From: Dokdonia sp. Dokd-P16
GTDB lineage: Bacteria; Bacteroidota; Bacteroidia; Flavobacteriales; Flavobacteriaceae
NCBI RefSeq assembly: GCF_003095655.1
Contig: NZ_CP029151.1
Coordinates: 124,001-188,000, forward strand
Length of the DNA stretch: 64,000 nucleotides
Direction of reading: 5' to 3'
The position numbers were made by a program, and so were the translations under genes. The notes beneath the pieces were generated by a model. That model worked only from the letters and a program-made list of their open reading frames with translations, searched no databases and was not told the DNA's origin. Position 1 is the first letter of the stretch; each line of letters begins with the position of its first letter. Positions 1,454-53,462 of the stretch are shown here, in pieces.

Positions 1454-1903
1454 ATGGAAACACTCATAAACAACATAAAATTTGCGCAACGCCTCCAAGA
1501 AATCATGGATGCAAACGAATTGAGCGCAACTGCTTTTTCAGAAAAACTACAGGTAGGAAGAGCTACCATATCTCATCTTATGGCTGGAAGAAATAAGCCC
1601 AGTTTAGACTTTGTAATGACCGTGGTTGCCACCTTCCCAGAAGTAGAATTACAGTGGCTTCTTTATGGTACAAAATCAAGTCCAAAAATCACCGCTCCTA
1701 CTCCATCAAACCACACTACTTTTTCGTCTGATGTGCCTTCAAAAAACGCTCAAGAATTTTCGTCAAAAACAAGTGCTACTCCACCATCAAACACGGAGCA
1801 AAAAACACTCAAAAACATCACTGCTTTTTCCTCTTCAAAATCACCTATTAAGAGAGTGATTATATTTTTAGAAGATGGAACTTTTGAGAGTTATGAGATT
1901 TAA
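1454..1903 (+). CDS. XRE-family helix-turn-helix transcriptional regulator
   Basis: 149 aa. Residues about 8-72 form a Cro/CI-type HTH (FAQRLQEIMDANELSATAFS, then VGRATISHLMAGRNKPS as the recognition region). A serine/threonine-rich, probably flexible linker of about 60 residues follows, then a short C-terminal stretch ending FLEDGTFESYEI, which has a conserved look and may be a dimer or ligand tail. The gene stands alone, divergent from the M14 peptidase gene. The operator-like site at 1421-1434 against its own promoter, and the related 38-bp palindrome in front of the peptidase, suggest autoregulation and control of the peptidase. The inducing signal is unknown. Confidence 0.8.
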   Translation: METLINNIKFAQRLQEIMDANELSATAFSEKLQVGRATISHLMAGRNKPSLDFVMTVVATFPEVELQWLLYGTKSSPKITAPTPSNHTTFSSDVPSKNAQEFSSKTSATPPSNTEQKTLKNITAFSSSKSPIKRVIIFLEDGTFESYEI

Positions 1904-2028
1904 AATTTGCCTACACCTCTTCTTCAAAAATCACCTTAATACGAGTACATTTTTGATAAGAAATTTTCAGTCATTTTACTTCTTTAAAATATCTTAAGAC
2001 TTACTCTCTATTACTCACATTCCTGTCT

Positions 2029-2036
2029 TATTTTTG
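2029..2036 (+). promoter_or_regulatory. TAnnTTTG promoter element for lipoprotein-terC operon
   Basis: TATTTTTG six bases before the ATG at 2043; near-leaderless start. Confidence 0.55.
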
Positions 2037-2042
2037 TAACCT

Positions 2043-2426
2043 ATGAAGAATCAATGGAAAGCTTTTTTTGTGATAATTAGTGTTTTCGCTTTAAGCTGTG
2101 AAAGTCCAGAACGTGACTGTACAGATTTTAAAACAGGCACATTCACGTTTGAAACATTACTAGATGGGGAACTCGTTGCAACCACTTTTAAACGTAATGA
2201 TACACTGGAAATTGATTACTTTAAAGGTAAAGCAGACTCCTCTTCTGTGCGATGGATTAACGACTGTGAGTACATCGTCAAGAAACTCCACCCACGTAGC
2301 ATGAGCGAAGAAAAAGCGCTACACATGAAAATAATAGCTACTGACGGAGATTTTTATACCTTTGAGTACTCCCTTGTAGGAGAAACCAACAAACAACGTG
2401 GCATCGCCAAAAAAACAACTGACTAA
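2043..2426 (+). CDS. Small uncharacterised lipoprotein
   Basis: 127 aa. The N-terminus is a lipoprotein signal (hydrophobic stretch ending LSC-E, Cys at residue 19), so the mature protein is about 109 aa and anchored to a membrane. A motif C-TDFKTGTFTFE follows at about 26-37 and a second Cys lies in NDCEYIV. The rest looks beta-rich. I do not recognise a characterised family; it looks like a conserved flavobacterial protein. Its stop overlaps the start of terC (TAATG), so the two are probably translationally coupled and work at the same membrane. Confidence 0.7.
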   Translation: MKNQWKAFFVIISVFALSCESPERDCTDFKTGTFTFETLLDGELVATTFKRNDTLEIDYFKGKADSSSVRWINDCEYIVKKLHPRSMSEEKALHMKIIATDGDFYTFEYSLVGETNKQRGIAKKTTD

Positions 2427-3271
2427 TGTTTGACATTCTTACCACTGCAGATGCTTGGGTAGCACTGCTTACGCTTACCTTTCTTGAAATCATATTAGGT
2501 ATTGACAACATCATTTTCATCTCCATAGCCGCCGAAAAGCTCCCACAAAAGGATCGCAAGAAGGCTACAAACATAGGTCTAGCCCTTGCTATGGGAATGC
2601 GTATTGCATTACTCTTTGGTATCTCATGGCTAGTTGCGCTTAGCGCACCATTCTGGCACATTAATCAAAGCTGGATCACTGGAGGCATAAGTTGGCAAGC
2701 GGTTATATTACTAGCAGGAGGATGTTTCTTGATCTGGAAGTCTGTACATGAGATTCATGAAAAAGTAGACGAGACAGGTCTTGAGGAGGAAGAAATTTCA
2801 AAAAAGAGTTCTACTACATTAGGTAATGCCATTGTGCAGATTGCAGTGATTAACCTTGTATTCTCCTTTGACTCTATACTTACTGCCGTAGGGATGACTA
2901 ATGGCCTTTCTGATAATCCAACAGATGCGTTAATCATTATGGTGATTGCAGTAGTAATTTCTGTTGGGATCATGATGCTTTTTGCAAACCCTGTAGGAAA
3001 CTTTATTGCAAAGCATCCATCACTACAGATATTAGGCCTCTCATTCTTAATTTTAATAGGTTTTATGCTCATTGCAGAAGGTGCTCACCTATCACACTTA
3101 GAAATCTTTGGATCAAGCGTAGGGGCTATTCCTAAGGGTTATTTATACTTTACGATTGCGTTCTCGCTTCTGGTAGAGTTTATAAACTTTAAATACCGCG
3201 CTATGAAGACTAAAGACTCTGGTGCTCAAATCCAAATGAAGAAAAACGTAGAGCACCTTACTAAAAAGTAA
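2426..3271 (+). CDS. TerC-family integral membrane protein
   Basis: 281 aa with about seven to eight membrane helices. The N-terminal segment FLEIILGIDNIIFISI (about 19-34) carries the acidic D-N pair typical of TerC, and a matching second one, NLVFSFDSILTAVGM, is at about 144-158; these acidic residues in membrane helices are thought to bind metal ions. Members are linked to tellurite resistance, manganese export or metal loading of secreted enzymes. Which applies here cannot be told. A charged loop (EKVDETGLEEEEISKK) separates the two halves. It overlaps the upstream lipoprotein gene by one base and ends at a bidirectional terminator. Confidence 0.88.
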   Translation: MFDILTTADAWVALLTLTFLEIILGIDNIIFISIAAEKLPQKDRKKATNIGLALAMGMRIALLFGISWLVALSAPFWHINQSWITGGISWQAVILLAGGCFLIWKSVHEIHEKVDETGLEEEEISKKSSTTLGNAIVQIAVINLVFSFDSILTAVGMTNGLSDNPTDALIIMVIAVVISVGIMMLFANPVGNFIAKHPSLQILGLSFLILIGFMLIAEGAHLSHLEIFGSSVGAIPKGYLYFTIAFSLLVEFINFKYRAMKTKDSGAQIQMKKNVEHLTKK

Positions 3272-3290
3272 TATTCTGCTCGCTAGCATA

Positions 3291-3327
3291 AAAAATCCCC
3301 TTGAAACTACGTTTCAAGGGGATTTTT
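3291..3327. terminator. Bidirectional terminator between terC and the histidine kinase
   Basis: Perfect 17-bp inverted repeat (AAAAATCCCCTTGAAAC, TAC loop) ending in a T-run on both strands, between convergent genes. Confidence 0.85.
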
Positions 3328-3365
3328 CTTTTCGTTATGACTATAACAAGCAGTAAGAAGTTTGA

Positions 3366-4700
3366 TTAAAAATTCTCATCCTCCATAAGCTTTTCTACCT
3401 TTTTACGCTCCCACGCCTTGTTAAACAAAGGGCTCCACCCAAACACTTCTGATGCATGACCAGCAACTCCCCAGCCCCATCCTAGTATAGGAAACAAAGC
3501 CCAAGGAAAGCTTGTAGACTGCACGTTAAAGTATATAAATACAGGTACCATAACCGCATAAATCGTAAAGTGAATGTAAAAACCTTTAAGGTCTTCTACC
3601 TTCTTCTTTGCACGCTGGTAACGTTTATCTGCAAGGAGTTCGCTCTGCCTGGGCTCAAATGTCACCTGCTCTGCTTGTGTCAATAGCGGTATTCCAACTT
3701 GAAATGTCTCACTATCATCTACTATATGCACCTCACTATTGGATAGTAAACTATATCGCTGCTTGATATTTTGCAAGCCTACACCACTACTCTTTTTTAC
3801 AACCTGTTTGGCCTGGATGTTATTTTCAATAAAGAGCCTATTCCCATCTTCGTAAATCTTAATGTATAGTTTTTTGTTAGGCGTTACCTGATTGTGTTTT
3901 ACAGCGTTTTCAAGTAATAACTGTAAGGAAAGCGGCACTACTTTATATTCTTGATGTGAGGCACTTTCTGGGATTTCCACCACAATACTATCTTCAAAAC
4001 GCATTTTGATGAGATTCATATATGTACGTGCAAAAGTGAGCTCCTCTTCAAGCGGCACTAACTCTTTATTCTTTTGCTCCAGTACATACCTGTACACTTT
4101 TGAAAGCGAAGTGGTAAACTTGGTTGCCTGTTTTGGGTTTTCCTCAATAAGACTTGCCAGCACATTTAAACTGTTGAATAAAAAATGAGGATCCAGCTGA
4201 TTTTTAAGCGCATCAAATTTTGCCGAAGCGGCTCCTGCAATAATCTTAGACTGTTTTACCCTGCTTTCCTGCTTATTTTTCCAGCGGCTCACTGCATAAA
4301 ATGAAGAAGTTGCAACGGCTGTTATCAAAAATGGAAAAATGTAATCCTCAAACCCTTCACTAGCCACATACTCATCAAATGGAATTTTATAATATCCTGT
4401 AATAAGTAATAATCGAAGTAGAAAAACGGTAATCAAAGTCACAACAATGTGCGTCACTAGTGCATAAGCGAGTACCTTAAAATTCCACAGACTGCCTGTA
4501 AAACGTTTTCTAAAGTTCACAATAACCATAGTGTTCACTGCATATAGCGCTACAGAGAATATTTGGTTTTGTATAAAAAAGGTTATTGCACCATCTCCAT
4601 ACCAAGGATTACCCAGCACATACAGTATGATACTGTGAACGATAAATATTGATAAGCCTACAATATTTGCCTTTGCAAACTCTTTTAGATAATATTTCAT
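3366..4700 (-). CDS. LytS-type sensor histidine kinase with C-terminal 2TM domain
   Basis: 444 aa. Four N-terminal membrane helices (about 12-30, 43-62, 77-100, 121-138), then a His_kinase domain with the motif QLDPHFLFNSLN, phospho-acceptor H172, and an N-box LLLENAVKHN at about 261-270. After the ATPase part comes a second membrane pair (about 375-420, FYIHFTIYAVMVPVFIYFNV) of the 2TM type, an added domain seen in flavobacterial kinases of this class. Such kinases normally signal to a LytTR response regulator; none is encoded beside it in this window. It lies 6 bp downstream of a secreted protein gene (4707-5336), probably in one operon. Confidence 0.88.
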   Translation of the reverse strand: MKYYLKEFAKANIVGLSIFIVHSIILYVLGNPWYGDGAITFFIQNQIFSVALYAVNTMVIVNFRKRFTGSLWNFKVLAYALVTHIVVTLITVFLLRLLLITGYYKIPFDEYVASEGFEDYIFPFLITAVATSSFYAVSRWKNKQESRVKQSKIIAGAASAKFDALKNQLDPHFLFNSLNVLASLIEENPKQATKFTTSLSKVYRYVLEQKNKELVPLEEELTFARTYMNLIKMRFEDSIVVEIPESASHQEYKVVPLSLQLLLENAVKHNQVTPNKKLYIKIYEDGNRLFIENNIQAKQVVKKSSGVGLQNIKQRYSLLSNSEVHIVDDSETFQVGIPLLTQAEQVTFEPRQSELLADKRYQRAKKKVEDLKGFYIHFTIYAVMVPVFIYFNVQSTSFPWALFPILGWGWGVAGHASEVFGWSPLFNKAWERKKVEKLMEDENF

Positions 4701-9181: not shown

Positions 9182-9382
9182 AAAAAAGCTTTTTTCCCCA
9201 CCCTGAAGGGTGAGCTTAGTTTGAAAAAGCTTTTCCCCGCCCCTAAAGGGAGAGCTTTTTTTTGTACGTAAAAATTTTTCTTGGCATTTGAAGGTGAATT
9301 TTTGATTCCAAAAAGCTTTCCCCCGGCCCTAAAGGGTGAGCTTGTTTTAAAAAGCTTTTCCCCGACCCTAAAGGGTGAGTTT
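9182..9382. repeat. Repeat family A, copies 1-4
   Basis: Four copies of a unit of about 34 bp starting AAAAAGCTTTTCCCC and ending CCCTAAAGGGTGAGCTT, at about 9183-9216, 9224-9257, 9310-9343 and 9349-9382. Each holds an inner palindrome CCCTAAAGGG (or CCCTGAAGGG), and the ends AAGCTTTT/GAGCTTTT are similar. Copies come in close pairs. Confidence 0.85.
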
Positions 9383-9426
9383 TTTTCTCTCAATACTCTT
9401 TACGACCATCAGTGATAAGCTTTTCC

Positions 9427-9608: not shown

Positions 9609-9629
9609 TAACATGCCAGCTTTTAATTT

Positions 9630-9747
9630 CAAAAAGCTTTTCCCATCTCTGAAGGGTGAGTTTGGTTTGAAAAAGCTTTTCCCAGACCGTGAAAGTGAGC
9701 TTTTGATTCCAAAAAGCTTTTCCCCAGCCCTAAAGGGTGAGCTTTTT
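9630..9747. repeat. Repeat family A, copies 5-7
   Basis: Copies at about 9631-9664, 9670-9704 and 9711-9747. Copies 5 and 6 are the most diverged (CCCATCTCTGAAGGG, CCCAGACCGTGAAAG); copy 7 matches the consensus. Confidence 0.85.
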
Positions 9748-43100: not shown

Positions 43101-45101
43101 TTGAAATTCAAACTTGAATCACCCTTTAAACCTACTGGCGATCAGCCCACTGCTATTAAATCGCTAGTAGATGGCGTTAACGCAAACGAAGCTTACCAAA
43201 CACTACTAGGTGTGACCGGAAGTGGAAAGACATTTACCGTGGCAAACGTGATTCAAGAAACGCAAAAACCAACACTGGTTCTTGCACATAACAAGACTCT
43301 TGCTGCCCAATTATACAGCGAGTTCAAAGCATTTTTTCCAAATAATGCCGTAGAGTATTTTGTTTCTTACTATGATTACTACCAGCCAGAAGCGTTTATT
43401 CCTTCCTCTGGAGTTTATATTGAGAAAGATCTGTCTATTAATGAGGAGATAGAAAAAATGCGATTGAGCACCACCACTTCCCTACTTTCAGGGAGACGTG
43501 ATGTGATTGTGATAGCCTCTGTTTCTTGCTTATACGGTATAGGAAACCCTGCCGAATTTCAAAAAAATATTATTGAAATTAAGCAAGATCAGGTCATTGC
43601 ACGCACGATGTTACTTAAAAAGCTAGTGCAAAGTTTATATTCTAGAACAGAGAGCGAGTTTAATCATGGGAATTTTAGAATTAAAGGAGATACCGTAGAG
43701 GTGTTTCCTGGATATGCAGATATGGCTTTTAGGATTCACTTCTTTGGTGATGAGATTGAGGAGATTGAAGCTTTTGACCCAACGTCTGCAGAGGTGATAG
43801 AGAAGTACTCGCAGTTACGCATCTACCCTGCAAATATGTTTGTAACCTCGCAAGATGTTCTGCAAGGAGCAATAAATCAAATAGGGGAAGATCTCACGAA
43901 GCAAGTTGGCTTTTTTGAAGGCGTAGGCAAACACCTAGAAGCAAAACGCCTTGATGAGCGCACTAATTTTGACCTTGAGATGATACGTGAACTAGGCTAT
44001 TGCTCAGGTATAGAGAATTACTCAAGATATCTTGATGGCCGTGAGCCAGGCACAAGACCGTTCTGTTTATTAGACTTTTTTCCAGACGACTATTTAATGG
44101 TAGTAGATGAAAGTCACGTGACAGTTTCTCAAGTAAGTGCAATGTATGGTGGCGATAGAAGTAGGAAAGAAAATCTAGTTGAATACGGTTTTAGACTCCC
44201 CGCAGCGATGGATAACAGGCCTCTTAAATTTGAGGAATGGGAAGCAATGCAGAACCAAGTCATATACGTATCTGCAACTCCAGCAGATTATGAATTACAG
44301 AAAACGGAAGGAGCCTATGTAGAGCAAATCATTAGACCTACAGGCTTACTAGACCCTATTGTAGAAGTACGTCCATCCCTTAACCAGATAGATGATCTTA
44401 TAGAAGAAATCACAAAAGTTACTGCCCGTAATGAACGTATTCTAGTCACTACACTTACCAAGCGTATGGCAGAAGAACTCACAAAATACCTCACAAGAAT
44501 AGACATAAGAACTCGCTACATACACTCTGATGTAGATACGCTAGAACGTGTAGAAATCATGCAAGATTTGCGTAAAGGATTATACGACGTACTCGTAGGA
44601 GTGAACTTATTAAGAGAAGGACTGGATCTTCCGGAAGTCTCTCTAGTGGCTATTCTAGATGCAGATAAGGAAGGTTTTTTACGTAGCAATAGATCGCTCA
44701 CACAAACGATAGGTCGTGCTGCCCGTAATATTAACGGTAAGGCGATCATGTATGCAGATAAAATTACTCGCTCTATGCAAGAAACCATAGATGACAGTAA
44801 TTACCGCAGGCAAAAACAAATAGACTACAATACCAAGCACGGATTGAGCCCTATGGCAATTAAAAAATCGCTTGATAATGCAATGACTCAAAAAGAAGCT
44901 TATAAAATAGAAGCCGAAGAGCTTGTAAACCTAGCTGCCGAAGATGCTCAAGAATATCAAACAAAACCACAGATTGAAAAGAAAATAAGAAGCACTCGTA
45001 AGGCTATGGAAGCTGCTGCAAAAGAACTAGACTTTATGCAGGCTGCAAAGCTCAGAGATCAGATTAAGGTCTACCAAGATAAACTTAAGGAACTCGCATA
45101 A
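43101..45101 (+). CDS. uvrB: Excinuclease ABC subunit B
   Basis: 666 aa; opens DNA around lesions in nucleotide excision repair with UvrA and UvrC. Walker A GVTGSGKTFT (about 38-47), the beta-hairpin region SYYDYYQPEAFIPSSGVYIE (about 92-111), helicase motif DESHV (about 339-343), motif VI TIGRAARN and the C-terminal UVR domain (about 623-660, AMEAAAKELDFMQAAKLRDQ). It starts with TTG at 43101, because the protein then reads MKFKLESPFKPTGDQPTAIK, the standard N-terminus, and no ATG is near. The palindrome at 43051 is just upstream. Confidence 0.97.
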   Translation: MKFKLESPFKPTGDQPTAIKSLVDGVNANEAYQTLLGVTGSGKTFTVANVIQETQKPTLVLAHNKTLAAQLYSEFKAFFPNNAVEYFVSYYDYYQPEAFIPSSGVYIEKDLSINEEIEKMRLSTTTSLLSGRRDVIVIASVSCLYGIGNPAEFQKNIIEIKQDQVIARTMLLKKLVQSLYSRTESEFNHGNFRIKGDTVEVFPGYADMAFRIHFFGDEIEEIEAFDPTSAEVIEKYSQLRIYPANMFVTSQDVLQGAINQIGEDLTKQVGFFEGVGKHLEAKRLDERTNFDLEMIRELGYCSGIENYSRYLDGREPGTRPFCLLDFFPDDYLMVVDESHVTVSQVSAMYGGDRSRKENLVEYGFRLPAAMDNRPLKFEEWEAMQNQVIYVSATPADYELQKTEGAYVEQIIRPTGLLDPIVEVRPSLNQIDDLIEEITKVTARNERILVTTLTKRMAEELTKYLTRIDIRTRYIHSDVDTLERVEIMQDLRKGLYDVLVGVNLLREGLDLPEVSLVAILDADKEGFLRSNRSLTQTIGRAARNINGKAIMYADKITRSMQETIDDSNYRRQKQIDYNTKHGLSPMAIKKSLDNAMTQKEAYKIEAEELVNLAAEDAQEYQTKPQIEKKIRSTRKAMEAAAKELDFMQAAKLRDQIKVYQDKLKELA

Positions 45102-45155
45102 ATAAGAAAGGGTCTCCTTACGGAAACCCAATCTCAAACTAACCAACTTAAATTG

Positions 45156-45590
45156 TTATGCTATCTCGATTAATCGAGATGGCTGCACACGTGCTTCCTC
45201 ACGTTTAGGCAATCCTATTGCAAGAATTCCATCTACATATTCGGCTGTTATTTTTGCTGTATTTACAGACTCAGGTAAGTTGAACGAGCGCTTAAACGAA
45301 GTGTAATTAAATTCTCTTCTCGTAAATTTCTGAGTTTCTACAGTCTCTTCATCTTTCTTAATTTCAGAAGAGATTGTGAGCAAATCATTATCTAACTGAA
45401 TATTAAAGTTTTCTTTCTTGAGACCCGGAGCAGCTACTTGTACCGTAAAGGAATCGTCCTTCTCTATAATATTTACAGAAGGAGTTGCAGTTGCAAATGT
45501 GTTTGTTCTTCCACCTAGCCAGTCAGTATTTAATAATTCTTCAAAAACTGATGGTAAATATGGAGCTGTATTTTTTCTAACTAAAGTCAT
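45156..45590 (-). CDS. Small heat-shock protein (Hsp20 family)
   Basis: 144 aa. Alpha-crystallin domain about 40-135: VNIIEKDDSFTVQVAAPGLK, FTRREFNYTSFKRSFNLPES, and the conserved AEYVDGILAIGLPK (A-x-x-x-G-I-L) at about 113-126. ATP-independent chaperone that holds unfolding proteins. Convergent with uvrB. It stands alone with no recognisable heat-shock operator in the 121-base gap upstream. Confidence 0.9.
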   Translation of the reverse strand: MTLVRKNTAPYLPSVFEELLNTDWLGGRTNTFATATPSVNIIEKDDSFTVQVAAPGLKKENFNIQLDNDLLTISSEIKKDEETVETQKFTRREFNYTSFKRSFNLPESVNTAKITAEYVDGILAIGLPKREEARVQPSRLIEIA

Positions 45591-45711
45591 AATTATAAAT
45601 TTAAAGTTTAACTGATTTTGCTATGGGTTAGGCAAATTCAGTTCCAATGTAAATTTTATGACGTTTTGACAGATTTACAGTATTTAATACTGTCTTTTTG
45701 TCAATTTTTGG

Positions 45712-46107
45712 TTAATTATAAAACCGTCTAAAAATCTCAACAAGACGATGAGAAGGAATCATTTTATGCTCATAATCTCCCATTTCACTTAGGATTTGCT
45801 GCACTGCTTCTGCGCGTATACCTAGCTTTAAGCCGTAATTGCGTAGCGTGTCAATTTCAACAAATTGAGTTTCCTCGTCTACATTCATAACCAATAAGAG
45901 CCTATGAAACTGCGTGAGGCGTTGCATTTCTGTCTTATACACCATCTTATCTTGAGGACTTTTTACAAGCGCATCAACCTCATCTTTTGATATTCCCATG
46001 CGTTTTGCAACCATAAGTATAAAATCATACTCGCGTTCATGTAAGTGATTATCTGCTTTTGCCATGAGCAACATATCAGATATAATTTGGAGATTTTCGG
46101 AGTTCAT
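45712..46107 (-). CDS. TerB-like helical protein
   Basis: 131 aa, all helical, soluble. MAKADNHLHEREYDFILMVAKRMGISKDEV at about 14-43 is the TerB-like start (acidic D/E residues in the helix may bind metal). It resembles tellurite-resistance TerB-domain proteins; role unknown. Divergent from the amidohydrolase gene, with a 20-bp palindrome in the 159-base gap between. Confidence 0.65.
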   Translation of the reverse strand: MNSENLQIISDMLLMAKADNHLHEREYDFILMVAKRMGISKDEVDALVKSPQDKMVYKTEMQRLTQFHRLLLVMNVDEETQFVEIDTLRNYGLKLGIRAEAVQQILSEMGDYEHKMIPSHRLVEIFRRFYN

Positions 46108-46210
46108 AGTATTTCTTTAAAGCGCAATGTAATTGATAATTTAGAGCGAGCGACATCCCTCCTATTAATAGTTGGCTATTTTGTAATTTTAGGACTTAGC
46201 TTTCAGGAAC

Positions 46211-46230
46211 TACGCTTTCGCGAAAGCGTA
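46211..46230. repeat. TACGCTTTCGCGAAAGCGTA palindrome, intergenic
   Basis: 20-bp perfect copy in the gap between TerB-like and amidohydrolase genes. Confidence 0.95.
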
Positions 46231-46266
46231 ACAGTAAAACCAACTAAAACAGATACCATCAATTAT

Positions 46267-47640
46267 ATGAAGTATATATACTCAATCTTAGCGATACTTT
46301 TACTACTAGTAAGTTGTAAACCTAAGGACACAACGCCCGCTTATGACCTCAAGATAAGCAATGTCTCCATTATAGACGAAAATGGAGCGCTAAGTAGTAA
46401 TAAAAATGTGTATCTCAGTAATGATTCGATTTATAAAATTGAAGAGATAAGCACTCTTTTGGATGACAAAGATGGTAATGTAATAGACGGTAGTGGTAAG
46501 TTTTTACTTCTTGGGTTTTGGGATAATCATACTCATTTTCGCGGAGGCGAAGCTCTTATTCCTCAGAATGAAAAATTTCTTGAACAATTTATAAAATATG
46601 GAATTACAACCGTGCGCGATGCTGGTGGCGATCTCACTACTCAAGTACAGCAATGGAATGAAGAAATAAAAAATAAAAAGCGCATAGGTCCTACTATTTA
46701 TACATCTGGACCCAAACTAGATGGAAAAAACGCTCGCTGGGCAGGTTCTATAGGCGTGAATACAGATGACGAGATAAGCAAAGCACTAGATTCTTTGCAA
46801 CAACTAGGCGTTGATTATGTAAAACTCTATGATAGTACGATCGCTAGAGAGACTTACCTATCCATAATAACACAAGCCGAAGAGCGCGGAATGATCACTT
46901 CTGGACACATGCCTTTTACAGTGACACTAGATGAAACCGTAGCTGCTGGAATCGATAATATTGAACACCTCTATTATATCTTGAAAGGATGCTCTTCTCG
47001 TGAAAATGAGATCACTCAAGACATAAAAGATGGAAAGCTAGGGTTTTGGGGAAGCATGGAACAGCTTATAGCAAGCTATGATGAGGAAACAGCGCTAAGT
47101 ACTTTTGAGAAATTAAAAAGCAATAATGTTTACGTCACTCCTACTTTATACATAGGCGATGTGCTAAGTTATATGGACGAGGTAAATCACAGTGATGATG
47201 CCTATTTAAAAACGTTAGATGCAGATTTTATAGCCACTTATGAAGGGAGGAACAAAGGAGCATTGAATGCTAGCCCAAAAGCCAAGCAAGATAGAAAAGA
47301 GCTGCAGCAATTTTTTCTAAAACTCGTTGCTTCATTAGATAAAGCTGGAGTTAATCTCCTTTCGGGATCAGATAGCGGCGCTTACAACTCATATATCTAC
47401 GCAGGACCATCGTTACATGGTGAGTTACAAGAAATGGTAAAAGCTGGCATCACTCCAGCAAATGCAATCGCAACGATGTATCAAGGTGCAAATTTTTTAC
47501 ACAAGAAAGGCTACCAGTTAGCCCCAGGTAACAAAGCAGATTTAGTGTTGCTTAATAGTAACCCGCTACTAGATATAAGCGCTACACAAGATATACATCT
47601 GGTGATTAAGGATGGTACAATCGTACACATTGAAAAATAA
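46267..47640 (+). CDS. Amidohydrolase-family lipoprotein
   Basis: 457 aa from the ATG at 46267 (MKYIYSILAILLLLVSC), since the longer frame upstream runs through the palindrome at 46211. Lipidated Cys at 17. Metal-binding motif GFWDNHTHFRG (H-x-H at about 84-86), a likely further ligand in HMPFTVTLDE, and DSGAYNS with the Asp near the C-terminal active site; the end GNKADLVLLNSNPLLDISAT is typical of imidazolonepropionase/dipeptidase-like members. Probably a periplasmic or surface hydrolase of cyclic amides or peptides; substrate unknown. Confidence 0.8.
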   Translation: MKYIYSILAILLLLVSCKPKDTTPAYDLKISNVSIIDENGALSSNKNVYLSNDSIYKIEEISTLLDDKDGNVIDGSGKFLLLGFWDNHTHFRGGEALIPQNEKFLEQFIKYGITTVRDAGGDLTTQVQQWNEEIKNKKRIGPTIYTSGPKLDGKNARWAGSIGVNTDDEISKALDSLQQLGVDYVKLYDSTIARETYLSIITQAEERGMITSGHMPFTVTLDETVAAGIDNIEHLYYILKGCSSRENEITQDIKDGKLGFWGSMEQLIASYDEETALSTFEKLKSNNVYVTPTLYIGDVLSYMDEVNHSDDAYLKTLDADFIATYEGRNKGALNASPKAKQDRKELQQFFLKLVASLDKAGVNLLSGSDSGAYNSYIYAGPSLHGELQEMVKAGITPANAIATMYQGANFLHKKGYQLAPGNKADLVLLNSNPLLDISATQDIHLVIKDGTIVHIEK

Positions 47641-47643
47641 ATT

Positions 47644-47759
47644 TATAAGCTTATTCACTTATAAATAGGCTTTATAAGCATATACACTTATAAATGCACT
47701 CTATAAGCTTATTTACTTATAAATGTATTCTATAAGCATATTTGCTTATATTTGAATAT
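47644..47759. repeat. Four 29-bp iterons upstream of satD
   Basis: Four direct repeats of exactly 29 bp, starting TATAAGC at 47644, 47673, 47702 and 47731. Each carries TATAAG(C), eight bases, CTTATA: an inverted repeat, perfect TATAAGC-N6-GCTTATA in the fourth. The spacer alternates CTTATTCA / CATATACA. The last copy overlaps a promoter element at 47747-47754, so the array looks like an operator for autoregulation. Confidence 0.9.
47747..47754 (+). promoter_or_regulatory. TAnnTTTG promoter element overlapping the fourth iteron
   Basis: TATATTTG, 21 bases before the GTG at 47775. Confidence 0.65.
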
Positions 47760-47774
47760 TAAAGTATTCAAAAG

Positions 47775-48467
47775 GTGGATTATACCAATCATATAGTAAT
47801 TTCTGGTGATTTTATTGCCTATACAAGTTTAAGCACGGACGAAAAGAAAACGCTCGAACAACAACTCTTGCAGCTGTTTCAGCAACTAGAGACTAAGTAT
47901 AACACGTTCTCTAGACTCATTAAAGGAGATTATCTTGAGTGTGTAGTTCCAGATCCCGAAAATGGACTAGCCGTAGCGCTGGCAATCAAAACATTTATAA
48001 AGTCTCTAGAAATAGAAGAAAAAGTAGAAAATAACAGAACAAGAGTTTTTCAAACCTATAGTATTCGCCTTGCTATGGGTTTAGGCAGACTAGATAGATT
48101 TAATAGAGCAGAAAATATTATAGATGGCGATGCTATCTACAGGAGTGGTCGCGCCATAAGCAGTGAAAGCACTCATAATAAAGAGCGTATGGTTATAAAA
48201 AATACGCTATTCTTTAGCTCTATAAATGAAGAACTTAACCTCAACATAGATGCGATTATCTCATTACTAGATCACTTACTAGCACGAGCAACTAGCAGAC
48301 AAAGCGAGGTCTTATTTCTAAAAATCATGGGTAATAGCGAGAAGGTCATAGCAAAAAAATTAGGCGTAAGCCAGTCTTCTATTAACCAGCACTCCACAGC
48401 CTCTGGATGGAATGGAATGGACAAAGCCATCAGGTATTTTAATCACACGTTAAGCAAGATTTCGTAA
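47775..48467 (+). CDS. SatD-family protein with a C-terminal HTH
   Basis: 230 aa starting with GTG (MDYTNHIVISGDFIAYTSLS); no ATG fits. The N-terminal part (about 1-155) has the SatD look (VISGDF, LIKGDYLECV, LAMGLGRL...IDGDAIYRSGRAIS), and the C-terminal part (about 178-222) is a likely helix-turn-helix: SEVLFLKIMGNSEKVIAKKL, GVSQSSINQHST. SatD was named for an acid-tolerance operon in Streptococcus; its activity is not known. It lies behind four 29-bp iterons, which its HTH may bind. It overlaps the DUF3307 gene by one base (TAATGG). Confidence 0.75.
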   Translation: MDYTNHIVISGDFIAYTSLSTDEKKTLEQQLLQLFQQLETKYNTFSRLIKGDYLECVVPDPENGLAVALAIKTFIKSLEIEEKVENNRTRVFQTYSIRLAMGLGRLDRFNRAENIIDGDAIYRSGRAISSESTHNKERMVIKNTLFFSSINEELNLNIDAIISLLDHLLARATSRQSEVLFLKIMGNSEKVIAKKLGVSQSSINQHSTASGWNGMDKAIRYFNHTLSKIS

Positions 48468-49183
48468 TGGATATAGCAACTCTCATCGCCCTACAAACCA
48501 TAGGTCATCTACTAGCAGATTATACCTTTCAATCTAAGAAAACTGCAAAGTCAAAGGCAAAAAAAGGCTTTAAAAGCAAACACCTCAAGTGGCATATTCT
48601 CACAGTGTTCTTAAGTTCTTTTATCATCTCTCTTGACTTCAGATTTCTTCCTTGGGCCATAGCAATAGCTGGTATACACTGGATTATAGACGGCTTAAAA
48701 CCTCAATTACTTAACAACAAATGGTTACATAAAGGTGCATTCTTTATCGACCAGTTACTTCACATCATCACTTATGTGGCAGCAAGTATTCTTTATGTAA
48801 ATATTGTGAGGTGGCAACCACTTATATTAGATGCTACATACTTTCCAATAATATGCCTTATTGCTATGTTTTTACTTTGTACAAAGCCAGCAAACATTGT
48901 GATAAAAGAGATTTTCAATCTATTTTCTGTATCGTTTACAGAGAAATCACAAGACTTACCTAACGCTGGCCGACTCATAGGTATCACAGAAAGATCGCTA
49001 GTACTTGTGCTTATCATCGTAGGACAGTTCAGCGCTGTAGGGTTTTTGATTACTGCAAAATCTATCTTGAGATTTAAAGATGGAGACTACCTAAAAACAG
49101 AATATGTATTGATAGGTACTATGTTGAGTTTTGCTATTGCCATTGGGTGTGCATTACTATACACACTATTTATCGCGCCATAG
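48467..49183 (+). CDS. DUF3307 membrane protein
   Basis: 238 aa with about six membrane helices. N-terminal pattern TIGHLLADYTFQSKKTAKSKA and IHWIIDGLKPQLL with the conserved H-D pairs (HLLADY; HWIID) of DUF3307 (YqxB-type). Function unknown. It overlaps satD by one base, a pairing that recurs in many genomes and suggests that the SatD-like HTH protein and this membrane protein form one system. Confidence 0.8.
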   Translation: MDIATLIALQTIGHLLADYTFQSKKTAKSKAKKGFKSKHLKWHILTVFLSSFIISLDFRFLPWAIAIAGIHWIIDGLKPQLLNNKWLHKGAFFIDQLLHIITYVAASILYVNIVRWQPLILDATYFPIICLIAMFLLCTKPANIVIKEIFNLFSVSFTEKSQDLPNAGRLIGITERSLVLVLIIVGQFSAVGFLITAKSILRFKDGDYLKTEYVLIGTMLSFAIAIGCALLYTLFIAP

Positions 49184-49265
49184 CATATTCGTTAAAAACG
49201 TCATTATCGCCGTATGTTTAGCTACTAGATGCTATTTTTATAAGTACAACCAAAATTTACAATCC

Positions 49266-50762
49266 ATGTATTTCAAACACATTCTCGCGGGTATCATTGT
49301 TGTTTCCGCTTTCGCGAAAGCGTATTCTCAAAAAGTCTCGGTTCCTGTAGATACCACCATCGTATCAAATCATTCTATCACTATTAAAGGAAAAACGATT
49401 CCCTATACAGCTACAGCTGGTTTTCAACCAGTTTGGGATGATGAAGGAATGCCTGTTGCAAATTTATTATACACCTACTATAAACGATCTGATATTAAAA
49501 ATGACGAGACTAGACCCTTAGTCATCTCTTTTAATGGAGGTCCAGGCTCTGCCTCTGTGTGGATGCACATTGCTTATACAGGGCCGCGCATTCTCAAAAT
49601 AGATGATGAAGGTTTTCCTGTCCAGCCGTACGGAATAAAAAGCAACCCAAATTCAATCTTAGACGTAGCAGATATTGTTTTTGTAAATCCTGTAAATACT
49701 GGCTATAGCCGTATGCTTCCTAATGAAAAAGGAGAAATGCCGGACTCTAAACAGTTTTTTGGGGTCAATGCAGATATTAAGTATCTAGCCGATTGGGTAA
49801 ATACTTTTGTAACAAGAAATAATCGCTGGCGTTCTCCAAAGTTTTTAATTGGCGAAAGTTATGGTACCACCCGCGTATCTGGACTTGCCGCCGAACTTCA
49901 AGACAATAAATGGATGTTTATTAATGGGGTGGTACTCGTATCTCCTACAGAAATAGGTTTTGATTTTGATGGCCCTGTAGAGGTTGCAAACCGCCTTCCT
50001 TACTTTACGGCTGCTGCTTGGTACCACAATATGCTACCTCCAGCCCTACAGCAAAAAGACCTTACAGAAGTACTTGCCGAAAGTGAAAACTATGCCGTAA
50101 ACGAACTCTTACCACTACTGGTGAAATCTGGCTATCTGGAAGCAAATAAAAAAGAGGCTGCTATCAAAAAAATGGCCTACTACTCTGGACTCTCAGAAAC
50201 TACCATAAGACAAAACAACCTTGAAGTTCCTTTTAATTATTTCTGGAAAGATTTACTGAGAAACCGCGACGGACTTACCATAGGGCGTCTTGATTCTCGT
50301 TATAAAGGACTAGACGTAAAAGAAGCTGGCGATGGACCAGATTACAACAGTGAGCTTACCTCATGGTTACATTCTTTTACTCCAGCAATTAACTATTACT
50401 ACAGTCAAGAATTAGGACTAAAGACAGACCTTACTTATAATATGTTTGGACCAGTGCGTCCTTGGGATCGTTCTAACAACAATGCTGGCGCTAGTTTACG
50501 CAAGGCTATGGGAGTAAATCCTAACCTCAACGTGATGATACAAAGCGGTTATTATGATGGTGCAACCACATACTTTAATGCAAAATATGTGATGTGGCAA
50601 CTTAATGCAAGTGGTAAGCTAGCTGACAGATTAAGTTTTAAAGGTTATAGATCTGGACACATGATGTACCTGCGCAATGAAGATCTTATCAATGCAAATG
50701 ACGATTTACGTGATTTTATCAAAAAGTCCTCTGTCGGTATTGAAAAAGGAGCAAAACATTAA
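49266..50762 (+). CDS. S10-family serine carboxypeptidase
   Basis: 498 aa from the ATG at 49266; the frame extends upstream but overlaps DUF3307 and has no signal there. Signal peptide MYFKHILAGIIVVSAFAKAY ends near YSQ; its FAKA part is a palindrome copy. Oxyanion segment NGGPGSASVWMH (about 80-91), nucleophile S198 in GESYG, then the Asp region SGYYDGATTYF (about 419-429) and catalytic His in YRSGHMMYL (about 460-468). Expected to cut C-terminal residues from peptides outside the cytoplasm. A hairpin terminator follows. Confidence 0.88.
   Translation: MYFKHILAGIIVVSAFAKAYSQKVSVPVDTTIVSNHSITIKGKTIPYTATAGFQPVWDDEGMPVANLLYTYYKRSDIKNDETRPLVISFNGGPGSASVWMHIAYTGPRILKIDDEGFPVQPYGIKSNPNSILDVADIVFVNPVNTGYSRMLPNEKGEMPDSKQFFGVNADIKYLADWVNTFVTRNNRWRSPKFLIGESYGTTRVSGLAAELQDNKWMFINGVVLVSPTEIGFDFDGPVEVANRLPYFTAAAWYHNMLPPALQQKDLTEVLAESENYAVNELLPLLVKSGYLEANKKEAAIKKMAYYSGLSETTIRQNNLEVPFNYFWKDLLRNRDGLTIGRLDSRYKGLDVKEAGDGPDYNSELTSWLHSFTPAINYYYSQELGLKTDLTYNMFGPVRPWDRSNNNAGASLRKAMGVNPNLNVMIQSGYYDGATTYFNAKYVMWQLNASGKLADRLSFKGYRSGHMMYLRNEDLINANDDLRDFIKKSSVGIEKGAKH
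49307..49322. repeat. CGCTTTCGCGAAAGCG palindrome in the S10 signal peptide
   Basis: Read as FAKA, just before the cleavage site YSQ; the second signal peptide built this way. Confidence 0.95.
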
Positions 50763-50799
50763 ATAATGCTTAAAAGGATTTTCATATAATTTAATAAAT

Positions 50800-50832
50800 A
50801 CAGCCCTTGTAACTTACTCAAGGGCTGTTTAA
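50800..50832 (+). terminator. Terminator after the S10 peptidase
   Basis: ACAGCCCTTG, nine-base loop, CAAGGGCTGTTTAATAA. Confidence 0.7.
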
Positions 50833-50838
50833 TAATAT

Positions 50839-51516
50839 ATAGCTATCAACAAGACCACTACTCTTATTAAATACTATCTATACCTCTGGGGATTATACAT
50901 TATCTTCTTTACAATATTCGGGATTCTTAAAACTCAATTTCCAGAGATATTTGAACGAGACTATGAGCAATCTGCTTTGCGTGAGTTATTGAAGAATAAT
51001 CCGCTTAAGTTATTTGTGCTAGCGGTTCTATTTGCTCCCGTTATTGAGGAAATGATGTTTCGCACGCTTATAAAGCCAAGTCACTCAGACATCATACTCC
51101 TCCTCTGCTCCTGGCCGCTCTTTTACTCAAATAAATTTATACCTGCAGATGTACACTGGGCTGTAAAACTTGGATTTATAGCTATCTTCTTATTTACTGT
51201 ATTCACTATTCTCAAACAACTTATACCAGAGCAACGTACACTTAAGATACGTAACTTCTTATCACGTCACTCTATGGTTGTTCTTATTGCGAGTTCGCTA
51301 CTTTTCGGTATGGTGCACATTAATAATTATGTAGACACCTTTGTACTTAATGCAGCACTTATTGCACTCATCATCCCGAGAATTATTTCAGGATTTATGA
51401 TGGGATTGCTTAAAATCAAGAATAAAAATATCGTTTGGCCTATGGCGCTTCATGCGATGAATAACGGTTTTGTAATTATCATTTTGATACTCTCTAAAAC
51501 AATGGAAAATTCTTAA
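50839..51516 (+). CDS. CPBP-family intramembrane protease with no ordinary start codon
   Basis: About 225 codons in one open frame. Reading upstream from the first TTG (50977), the frame encodes a clear membrane helix (LYLWGLYIIFFTIFGILKTQ, 50878-50937) and reaches a stop at 50833-50835 with no ATG, GTG or TTG. The ATA at 50839 (ATA GCT ATC AAC AAG) stands where the start is expected and could be a mutated ATG; ATT at 50866 is another option. Family motifs: APVIEEMMFRTLI (EExxxR, about 57-68), and HxxN-type HALHAMNNGF near the C-terminus, the abortive-infection/CAAX protease signature. Five to six helices. Coupled with the GNAT gene 3 bp on. Confidence 0.75.
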   Translation: MAINKTTTLIKYYLYLWGLYIIFFTIFGILKTQFPEIFERDYEQSALRELLKNNPLKLFVLAVLFAPVIEEMMFRTLIKPSHSDIILLLCSWPLFYSNKFIPADVHWAVKLGFIAIFLFTVFTILKQLIPEQRTLKIRNFLSRHSMVVLIASSLLFGMVHINNYVDTFVLNAALIALIIPRIISGFMMGLLKIKNKNIVWPMALHAMNNGFVIIILILSKTMENS

Positions 51517-51519
51517 GCT

Positions 51520-52029
51520 ATGGTTGTCACGCCTATAAAAAACAGTGAATTAGATGTCCTACAAGATCTTGCAATACGCACCTATTCGGCAGCATTTGCT
51601 CATAAAAATAAACCAGAAGTCATCGCCGATTATTATGAGTACGCTTTCGCGAAAGCGCACCTCAACAAACAATTAGCTACTAAGGATTCACTATGGTTCT
51701 TTGCCCGTGACGATGATAATATTATAGGGTATCTAAAGTTGAACATTAACCAGGCTCAAACAGAATTCCGAGAGCCAAATGGGCTAGAAATAGAACGTAT
51801 TTATATAGATACTCCTTACTTGCGCAAGGGTTATGGGCAAAGGCTTATAGATTTTTCGATTTCCAAAGCGAGACAGCATAAAAAAAACTACATTTGGCTC
51901 GGCGTTTGGGAGGAAAATCCAGAAGCCATTTTATTCTACAAAAAACAAGGTTTTATCATCACAGGCACTCATGATTATGATATGATTGCAGAGGTTCAAA
52001 CCGACTATATAATGACGCTTGATATATGA
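51520..52029 (+). CDS. GNAT-family N-acetyltransferase
   Basis: 169 aa. Acetyl-CoA-binding motif A: EIERIYIDTPYLRKGYGQRL (about 88-107, with R-K-G-Y-G), and a following FYKKQGFIITGT. Target unknown. A palindrome copy encodes YAFAKAHL at about residues 40-47. It begins 3 bp after the CPBP gene and its stop overlaps the serine deaminase start by 4 bp (ATGA), so the three are probably one transcript. Confidence 0.85.
   Translation: MVVTPIKNSELDVLQDLAIRTYSAAFAHKNKPEVIADYYEYAFAKAHLNKQLATKDSLWFFARDDDNIIGYLKLNINQAQTEFREPNGLEIERIYIDTPYLRKGYGQRLIDFSISKARQHKKNYIWLGVWEENPEAILFYKKQGFIITGTHDYDMIAEVQTDYIMTLDI
51642..51657. repeat. CGCTTTCGCGAAAGCG palindrome in the GNAT gene
   Basis: Read as FAKA. Confidence 0.95.
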
Positions 52030-53462
52030 ATAAGCAAATAGAGTCCATCTCCGTATTTGACATGCTTAAGATAGGCGTGGGACCTTCAAGTTCACACACG
52101 CTTGGTCCTTGGCGTGCAGCAAAACGCTTTATTAAAAAATTAAAAGACACTAATAAATTTGAGATGGTTTCTACTATAAAAGTAGACCTTTATGGATCGC
52201 TATCTCTCACTGGCAAAGGCCATGCTACAGATGTCGCAGTGATTATGGGCCTTACAGGTGCAGACCCGCAAACCTGTAATATAGATGAAATTCCTACTAC
52301 TGTAGATCACATAAAACTTTTTAGACGTCTTGACCTCGATGGCGAATTTACCTTTGACTTCAACCCTGATGAGGATATCGTATTTAATAGAAAATTTTTA
52401 CCCTTTCACCCTAACGGGATACGGTTTACTGCAACCTTAACTAATGATAAGAAGGTAAGAGAAAAGTATTATTCTATAGGAGGAGGCTTTGTCGTACAAG
52501 AAGAACGCAAACGTGCCGAACGCAAGAAAATAGCATTTGAATGTTTCCCAAGACCGGTAGAAAAAGCGACAGACCTACTCAAGTTCTGTAAACAAGAAGG
52601 AAAACCTATTTCTCAGATTGTTTTAGAAAACGAACTGTATCTCCACACAGAAGAGGAAATTAATGAGCGTTTTAAACAAATATGGGATGTGATGCTAGAC
52701 TCTATGTACATAGGTTGTCACACAGAGGGAACATTACCTGGCGGACTAAATGTAAGAAGACGAGCATATGATTCTCATTTAAAACTTCAAAAAAACACCA
52801 ACTATACAGATAAGTATGAGTGGATAAAAGCAATACGAAGCCAAGAGGTACGCTTTCGCGAAATATTGAAGTGGGTATCTTGTTTTGCTCTTGCAGTAAA
52901 TGAGGTAAATGCATCTCTAGGCCGAGTGGTTACCGCTCCTACTAATGGAAGCGCAGGAGTAATCCCTTCTGTATTGATGTACTATATCGTTATAGAAAAT
53001 CACGATGCAAATTTTGAAGATATTAAAAGGTTCCTTCTCGTAGCAGGTGAGGTAGGAAGCTTATTTAAAAAAGGAGCAACCATCTCTGCAGCAATGGGTG
53101 GATGTCAGGCAGAAATAGGAGTATCTAGTGCAATGGCAGCAGCTGGTCTTACAGAACTCATGGGTGGAAGCCCAGAGCAAGTTCTCATGGCTGCAGAGAT
53201 CGCTATGGAACATCACTTAGGCCTCACTTGTGACCCTATAGGAGGACTTGTACAGATTCCTTGTATAGAACGCAATGCCATGGGAGCAATTAAGGCTATT
53301 AATGCCTGTGAGATGGCTCTAGATGGAGATGCTGCAAACGCTAAGGTCCCTTTAGATAAAGTGATTGACACTATGTGGCAAACAGCTCAAGACATGAACA
53401 CGAAGTATAAAGAAACCTCAGAAGGTGGGCTCGCTATTAATGTAGCTATGGCAGATTGTTAA
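52026..53462 (+). CDS. sdaA: L-serine ammonia-lyase (single chain)
   Basis: 478 aa. Turns serine into pyruvate and ammonia. N-terminal part begins SVFDMLKIGVGPSSSHTLGP (about 8-27, the substrate/metal-site SSSHT); C-terminal part contains the cysteines of the [4Fe-4S] cluster and the catalytic region (GCQAEIGVSSAMAAAGL, LTCDPIGGLVQIPCIERNAM, NACEMAL). A single-polypeptide form with both alpha and beta domains, 478 aa as in gamma-proteobacterial SdaA (about 454). A palindrome core encodes VRFREIL, where the right arm departs from the repeat. Overlaps the GNAT gene. Confidence 0.92.
   Translation: MNKQIESISVFDMLKIGVGPSSSHTLGPWRAAKRFIKKLKDTNKFEMVSTIKVDLYGSLSLTGKGHATDVAVIMGLTGADPQTCNIDEIPTTVDHIKLFRRLDLDGEFTFDFNPDEDIVFNRKFLPFHPNGIRFTATLTNDKKVREKYYSIGGGFVVQEERKRAERKKIAFECFPRPVEKATDLLKFCKQEGKPISQIVLENELYLHTEEEINERFKQIWDVMLDSMYIGCHTEGTLPGGLNVRRRAYDSHLKLQKNTNYTDKYEWIKAIRSQEVRFREILKWVSCFALAVNEVNASLGRVVTAPTNGSAGVIPSVLMYYIVIENHDANFEDIKRFLLVAGEVGSLFKKGATISAAMGGCQAEIGVSSAMAAAGLTELMGGSPEQVLMAAEIAMEHHLGLTCDPIGGLVQIPCIERNAMGAIKAINACEMALDGDAANAKVPLDKVIDTMWQTAQDMNTKYKETSEGGLAINVAMADC
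52854..52863. repeat. TTTCGCGAAA palindrome inside sdaA
   Basis: Left arm extends to CGC, right arm is ATATTG; read as FRE. Only coding copy in this frame. Confidence 0.85.

Follow-up and report, generated by a model that had tools for sequence, protein, structure and literature searches.

Autoregulators that act through a repeated operator are a known general kind of control system. The ParR/parC and TubR/tubC partition arrays consist of tandem sites lying on the promoter of the gene for their own DNA-binding protein. Regulators of the LuxR/GerE type carry a receiver or autoinducer domain, and certain mycobacterial proteins (e.g., Rv0386 and Rv1358) have a cyclase-fold domain and a LuxR-type helix-turn-helix (HTH) in one protein; these proteins are large, with an ATPase-like region between the cyclase and HTH domains. 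The SatD family (PF16264) takes its name from the sat operon of Streptococcus mutans. One report mentions S. mutans SatCDE beside Ffh and YlxM (PMC12077213), and another contains a Fusobacterium SatD whose acid-resistance annotation derives solely from the family name (PMC10326533). The literature searched contained no DNA-binding role or array for the SatD family and no experimentally shown function of SatD or DUF3307.

We analyzed a repeat array and the two genes that follow it in Dokdonia sp. Dokd-P16. The window (i.e., the whole stretch of DNA that was analyzed; 64,000 nucleotides) contains the following features at this locus:

47644..47663, no strand assigned: array site 1, TATAAG-N8-CTTATA, exact pattern match
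47673..47692, no strand assigned: array site 2, TATAAG-N8-CTTATA, exact pattern match
47702..47721, no strand assigned: array site 3, TATAAG-N8-CTTATA, exact pattern match
47731..47750, no strand assigned: array site 4, TATAAG-N8-CTTATA, its last four bases shared with the start of the putative promoter box
47747..47754, + strand: putative -7 box TATATTTG, matching the consensus TAnnTTTG and overlapping site 4
47775..48467, + strand: satD-like gene, GTG start, TAA stop, 230 aa
48467..49183, + strand: DUF3307 membrane protein gene, ATG start, 238 aa, one-base overlap with satD

The initial annotation of this locus had described four repeats at 29-bp spacing, each with TATAAG-N8-CTTATA, and exact matches do start at 47644, 47673, 47702, and 47731. 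TRF reported the array at 47635-47750 (period, 29; score, 121), and site 1 starts three bases past the stop codon of the upstream amidohydrolase gene (ORF end, 47640). The exact pattern occurred five times in the whole 3.62-Mb genome, with four of these occurrences in the array, while a reversed control pattern occurred twice. The one-base gene overlap was also confirmed, given that satD ends and DUF3307 begins at 48467. The placement of the sites on nearly the same DNA face proved incorrect: 29 bp corresponds to 2.76 helical turns (10.5 bp per turn), each site falling ~86 degrees short of being in phase, so that the four sites do not share a face of the helix. Same-face phasing is thus rejected by arithmetic for steps of 28-29 bp (2.67-2.76 turns). 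A Pfam scan of the eight neighbors at 43101-53459 identified UvrB, Hsp20, TerB-like, amidohydrolase, peptidase S10, Rce1-like, GNAT, and serine dehydratase proteins. No replication gene or initiator was detected by Pfam among the ten operon and neighboring proteins of this region, and the earlier remark that no replication gene is nearby accordingly holds for the eight scanned neighbors. Two tandem repeats with a 39-bp period are located elsewhere in the window (9183-9383 and 9618-9746; TRF scores, 143 and 142).

The SatD-like protein was predicted to consist of a nucleotidyl-cyclase-like domain (residues ~1-165) and a LuxR/sigma4-like HTH (~173-210). Its match to SatD (PF16264) is near full length (residues 7-211 on profile positions 2-196; E 3.7e-5), and its score (23.9 bits) does not reach the gathering cutoff of 29; we therefore refer to the protein as SatD-like. 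The C-terminal HTH that had been recognized from the translation matched GerE at residues 173-207 (E 3.5e-4), yet at 20.6 bits the match is under the Pfam cutoff of 23.5. At a permissive threshold (E<=10), 34 of 36 SatD proteins matched GerE (best, 6.6e-7). A weak CARF-family match over the SatD HTH was obtained from PADLOC-DB (E 0.0039), where DUF3307 had no match.

An AlphaFold2 model of SatD prepared from 36 sequences had a pLDDT of 90.6. Nucleotidyl cyclases accounted for 49 of the best 50 Foldseek matches of this model (best E, 4.9e-4), with three matches in all reaching E 0.001, and Foldseek favors class III cyclases for the modeled domain. A second structure comparison aligned 143 residues with Rv1625c (Z 12.2; rmsd 3.1). 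Z scores near the best were obtained for Cas10 (Cmr2) (11.4), GTP cyclohydrolase III (11.2), and GGDEF (11.1); because Z scores within 1 represent ties, the SatD domain belongs to the wider cyclase/palm fold. Regarding sequence profiles, the SatD-cyclase comparison was weak (probability, 13-15%; P ~0.002), and in this weak alignment D12 and D52 of SatD were in register with D15 and D59 of the cyclase set. Each of these two metal aspartates was present in 51 of 51 diverse SatDs. Residue 48, four places before the second Asp, is mainly I, L, V, F, or M, and no Lys was among the residues listed there (49/51 SatDs), compared with 17/18 for the cyclase set. The catalytic Asn (17/18 in the cyclase set) was likewise not among the residues listed at position 122 (50/51), which is mainly Y, Q, V, or I and for which the register was taken from motif spacing. 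Arg126 was kept in 33 of the 51. Given that the typical Lys and Asn were not seen, ligand binding is likelier than a cyclase role for this domain, judging from its residues.

The downstream protein matched PF11750 (DUF3307) with 78.4 bits, above the cutoff of 23, and for DUF3307 the earlier label, a membrane system of unknown function, still applies. The protein was predicted to be all-helical, with conserved His, Asp, and Gln. For its model (pLDDT, 89.4), no confident fold match was found by Foldseek (best E, 0.59) or by the second comparison (Z <=5.8).

The two genes form a near-obligate pair. Among 395 sampled Bacteroidota genomes, 59 matched a SatD alignment (used because the Pfam SatD profile did not recover the SatD of the window from its genome) and 95 matched DUF3307. 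DUF3307 was directly 3' of satD in 73 of 75 loci, both misses being contig ends. Starting from DUF3307, SatD was upstream in 30/30 (the best 30 of 95 loci; some genomes were common to the satD set). For genomes without a match to the first SatD profile, SatD was upstream of DUF3307 in 13 of 14 loci, L137 being the exception. SatD-like proteins also matched 10 plasmid records, including six of 3,770 bp, and DUF3307 follows in all four that were inspected. In pEC34A (NC_019077.1; 3,770 bp), the pair (1792-3481) makes up the main cargo, alongside rop and mobA; by eye, two AACC-type dyads with centers 29 bp apart precede it. No near match of the satD-DUF3307 pair was found in an E. coli genome collection. 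A phage origin of the pair was considered and rejected: tblastn against phage records matched neither SatD nor DUF3307, though DUF3307 matches phage family phrog_2470 (E 6.2e-15).

As the initial annotation had proposed, the same array was sought ahead of satD in other genomes. Removal of similar upstream sequences reduced the 75 satD loci to 61 nonredundant Bacteroidota upstreams. A significant dyad array (p<=0.01; 200 shuffles) was present in 48 of these, compared with 0 of 59 control windows located further upstream (60 shuffles each; control windows were absent for two of the 61). The first finder detected no significant array in 13/61. A second finder recovered a usable array in 99 of 105 loci; the six without one include L065 and L069, which keep Gln200. 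Regarding the Dokdonia group, 10 of 18 genomes had a SatD match, and 14 of the 18 were searched for the exact site. The annotation had named close relatives with the gene pair and without the array as evidence against its proposal; in fact, all nine searched genomes with a close satD (9/9) carry tandem sites. No tandem sites were found in the five searched genomes without a SatD match, which contained 0, 0, 2, 0, and 1 scattered sites.

The step between sites is nearly constant. When steps of 22-40 bp were allowed, 86 of 128 gap lengths were 29 bp and 13 were 28 bp. A set of 114 arrays was picked by a finder that accepted only steps from 28 to 30, which makes its own step counts and autocorrelation circular, and the autocorrelation was therefore redone without array selection. 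In the 61 upstreams, lag 29 gave 0.413 (other lags from 15 to 45, <=0.325), and in 62 hold-out upstreams, mostly from Flavobacterium, lag 28 gave 0.482 (others, <=0.36). Perfect 6-bp dyads with a spacer of 8 numbered 94, compared with a shuffle mean of 10.6 and a maximum of 15 (20 shuffles); L054 and L017 (both duplicates), L056 (on a short contig), and L060 (no start motif detected) were omitted from the count. Spacers of 10, 12, and 23 were likewise in excess (69, 56, and 64, respectively), as longer arms and neighboring sites would produce. The upstream of satD at L041 contains three consecutive, identical 24-base sites at 29-bp intervals, which points to a recent duplication or conversion event. 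The array at L062 has seven similar copies.

TAnnTTTG is the consensus of the Bacteroidota -7 box (PMC9723704). Of the 114 arrays, 64 have this motif close to where the last site ends (shuffled mean, 5.5; maximum, 10), and in 28 of these 64 it starts within the last site; the motif was absent from this region in the other 50. The claim that the window's array ends on the satD promoter stands in the form that its last site overlaps a putative promoter box, identified by a sequence match to the consensus. The position of the last site on this putative -7 box suggests repression.

The half-sites vary by lineage (TATTAC, TATAAG, TATCGG, TATTAG, TATCGT, TATAGG, TATAGC, and others), while the step stays at 28-29 bp. 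We ranked residue-base pairs between the SatD HTH and the half-site for 94 of 105 loci, after p and coherence filters. With 50 representatives of <70% identity, the top pair was residue 205 and half-site position 4: C at position 4 (C4) accompanied an acidic residue 205 in 12/13 cases and a nonacidic residue in 2/37 (Fisher 9e-9, with kinship ignored). The same pair was also top at <90% identity, but it was fourth at <50% identity. Near-twin helices illustrate the association, NISQGLKR occurring with TATTAG and NISEGLKR with TATCTG. For residue 200, TAT was found in 45 of 48 Gln200-bearing representatives of <70% identity. Two of the 105 loci, L116 and L132, encode Arg200, and TGTTAC is confined to these two, while their relatives with Gln200 carry TATTAC. 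Recognition of A by Gln and of G by Arg is a classical type of contact.

On a tree constructed without the HTH columns, acidity at residue 205 switches six times and C4 nine times. Counting well-supported branches gave two independent paired changes and counting all branches gave six, numbers too small to be significant, so that kinship is only partly ruled out for the co-variation of residue 205 with C4. In the NQHS group, the helix hardly varies, yet half-site positions 4-6 do. The HTH residues thus explain part of the half-site changes and not every one.

Two rules, for residues 200 and 205, were fixed beforehand and applied to 64 further loci, of which 56 passed the filter; many of these are close kin of the training loci (Flavobacterium, TATTAC). 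Omitted were the repeats L180, L184, L197, L238, and L241, two short upstreams, and six filter failures, and L173 (a repeat) was not entered. Gln200 occurred with A at position 2 (A2) in 51/53 loci, and Lys, Ser, or Glu at residue 200 occurred without A2 in 3/3 (ATTGGC or GCCAAT); no hold-out locus had Arg200. An acidic residue 205 was accompanied by C4 in 3/4 loci, and a nonacidic residue occurred without C4 in 46/52, all six failures having Ala, Gly, or Ser. By eye, the exceptions L189 and L220 are apparent register slips of the array finder, and the counts were left uncorrected. The Gln200 rule is upheld where tested, and the 205 rule is upheld in part and needs widening to small residues. 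A Flavobacterium subgroup (L228, L231, L232, L233, L234, and L235) combines SatDs lacking Gln200 with sites of the ATTGG type or related ones; the array filter rejected three of the six.

We classify the repeats as an operator array because they are linked to satD and co-vary with its own HTH, kinship being partly excluded. Self-regulation by the SatD-like protein, as suspected in the initial annotation, is strongly supported by this comparison of gene linkage and half-site co-variation, together with the overlap of the window's last site and a putative promoter box. On the basis of the computed array conservation, step, HTH co-variation, promoter-box proximity, near-obligate gene pair, and predicted fold, we consider it likely that the array is the operator of satD-DUF3307 read by SatD, which would be a cooperative autoregulator, probably nucleotide-responsive, controlling its membrane partner. 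A SatD dimer would occupy each inverted repeat via the C-terminal HTH, with Gln200 reading the A of TAT and residue 205 influencing half-site position 4. Adjacent dimers would touch at the fixed 28-29 bp step, leading to cooperative filling of the array. Half-sites alternate in orientation every ~14-15 bp, and a step that is constant while the letters change most probably reflects contacts between neighboring proteins. Because sites separated by 2.67-2.76 turns wind round the helix, the complex would be a spiral rather than a one-faced row. Cooperative binding is thus plausible from the fixed step rather than from a shared DNA face. A filled array, with its last site on or beside the -7 box, would turn the operon off (i.e., autorepression rather than activation). 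The cyclase-like domain, with its two metal-binding aspartates, probably binds a nucleotide or related ligand, which would make DNA binding tighter or looser, and SatD binding tuned in this way would set the level of the DUF3307 membrane protein as the operon's presumed effector.

Beyond the array, the genome has one further exact site (L168), inside a reading frame, and a near-copy of site 4, AATAAGTATATTTGCTTATA at C1:535796 (L167), which ends 19 bases before the ATG of an alpha/beta-hydrolase-like ORF and is possibly a second operator. Judged from the exact sites and this single one of the one-mismatch sites, a wide SatD regulon was rejected.

A reading in which another host DNA-binding protein recognizes the array, with SatD downstream by chance, would be compatible with the half-site variation under the nearly constant NQHS helix, and SatD binding itself was inferred from co-variation. 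We regard this as unlikely, however, given that half-site changes track the SatD recognition helix among the training loci and outside them, that the five searched Dokdonia-group genomes without a SatD match lack tandem sites, and that the exact site is nearly confined to the satD locus (4/5 genome occurrences). Fixed-step tandem sites held by the promoter of a DNA-binding protein, a membrane partner, and the presence of the gene pair on some plasmids would also suit a partition or tether element, with a centromere-like array coated by SatD and fixed to the membrane through DUF3307. This seems very unlikely, since the distance of the locus from dnaA ranges from 0.009 to 0.494 genome lengths (25 single-contig genomes), there is no motor gene among the scanned window neighbors, and no DUF3307 match was obtained for 300 of the 395 Bacteroidota genomes sampled.

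The iteron-like look of the repeats recalls the replication iterons of an integrated plasmid, an origin that we consider hardly credible: none of the eight scanned neighbors is a replication gene, the distance to dnaA is not constant, and, by eye, arrays precede satD in many genomes with differing sequence further upstream. A replication or origin role of the array was rejected on the first two of these grounds. It is highly improbable that the repeats act at the RNA level, as terminator or leader hairpins belonging to the upstream gene, even though all sites are inverted repeats and site 1 starts just past the upstream stop codon; the array tracks satD from genome to genome with a constant step and a varying 8-base middle, and in the window the sites run up to the putative -7 box, which would place them upstream of the satD transcript start. 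Tandem copies can come from slippage, and L062 has its seven similar copies, but a neutral slippage repeat has next to no plausibility in view of the arms being kept within an array while the middle drifts, and changing in step across lineages.

The favored reading, an operator read by SatD, can be extended to the phylum. SatD proteins would then be phylum-wide nucleotide-gated DNA-binding regulators that use a disabled cyclase domain as sensor and dimer surface, form a regular superhelix on half-sites at ~14-bp intervals, and together with the DUF3307 membrane effector constitute a mobile stress or defense module. This extension is doubtful; its mobile stress or defense aspect is hinted at by tiny plasmids that carry the pair as their main cargo. 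Should SatD sense a nucleotide via a disabled cyclase fold, nucleotide signaling would be linked to a widespread membrane protein, DUF3307. The array offers a direct handle, comprising the DNA that SatD would read, the candidate reading residues, and a measurable promoter, and the variation of half-sites with HTH residues is a ready data set for a protein-DNA recognition code.

Regarding known systems, the protein of the window is a weak, near full-length match to the SatD family, below the gathering score. Its N-terminal domain resembles class III nucleotidyl cyclases (PF00211, e.g., Rv1625c) in predicted fold, in both metal aspartates, and in the SatD motif order GD, R-x5-G, G-x7-R, whereas the typical Lys/Asn were not seen, Arg126 is present in only 33/51 SatDs, and an HTH is fused to the domain. 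The HTH is like that of LuxR/GerE-type regulators (GerE matched by 34/36 at E<=10), but SatD has a cyclase-like domain at the place of the receiver or autoinducer domain. A PucR/CdaR-type regulator (Rv2242 fragment, 9f80) ranked 13 in Foldseek for the SatD model (E 2.8e-3), with a TM-score of 0.25, i.e., no real structural match. In contrast to ParR/parC and TubR/tubC, the satD array is chromosomal here, is not tied to dnaA, and has no motor gene among the scanned neighbors. No account of SatD as a regulator, cyclase relative, or array binder was found in the literature searched, most subscription papers lying outside it. Within that literature, the SatD architecture, the fixed-step array across many Bacteroidota, and the co-variation of half-site and HTH appear to be new.
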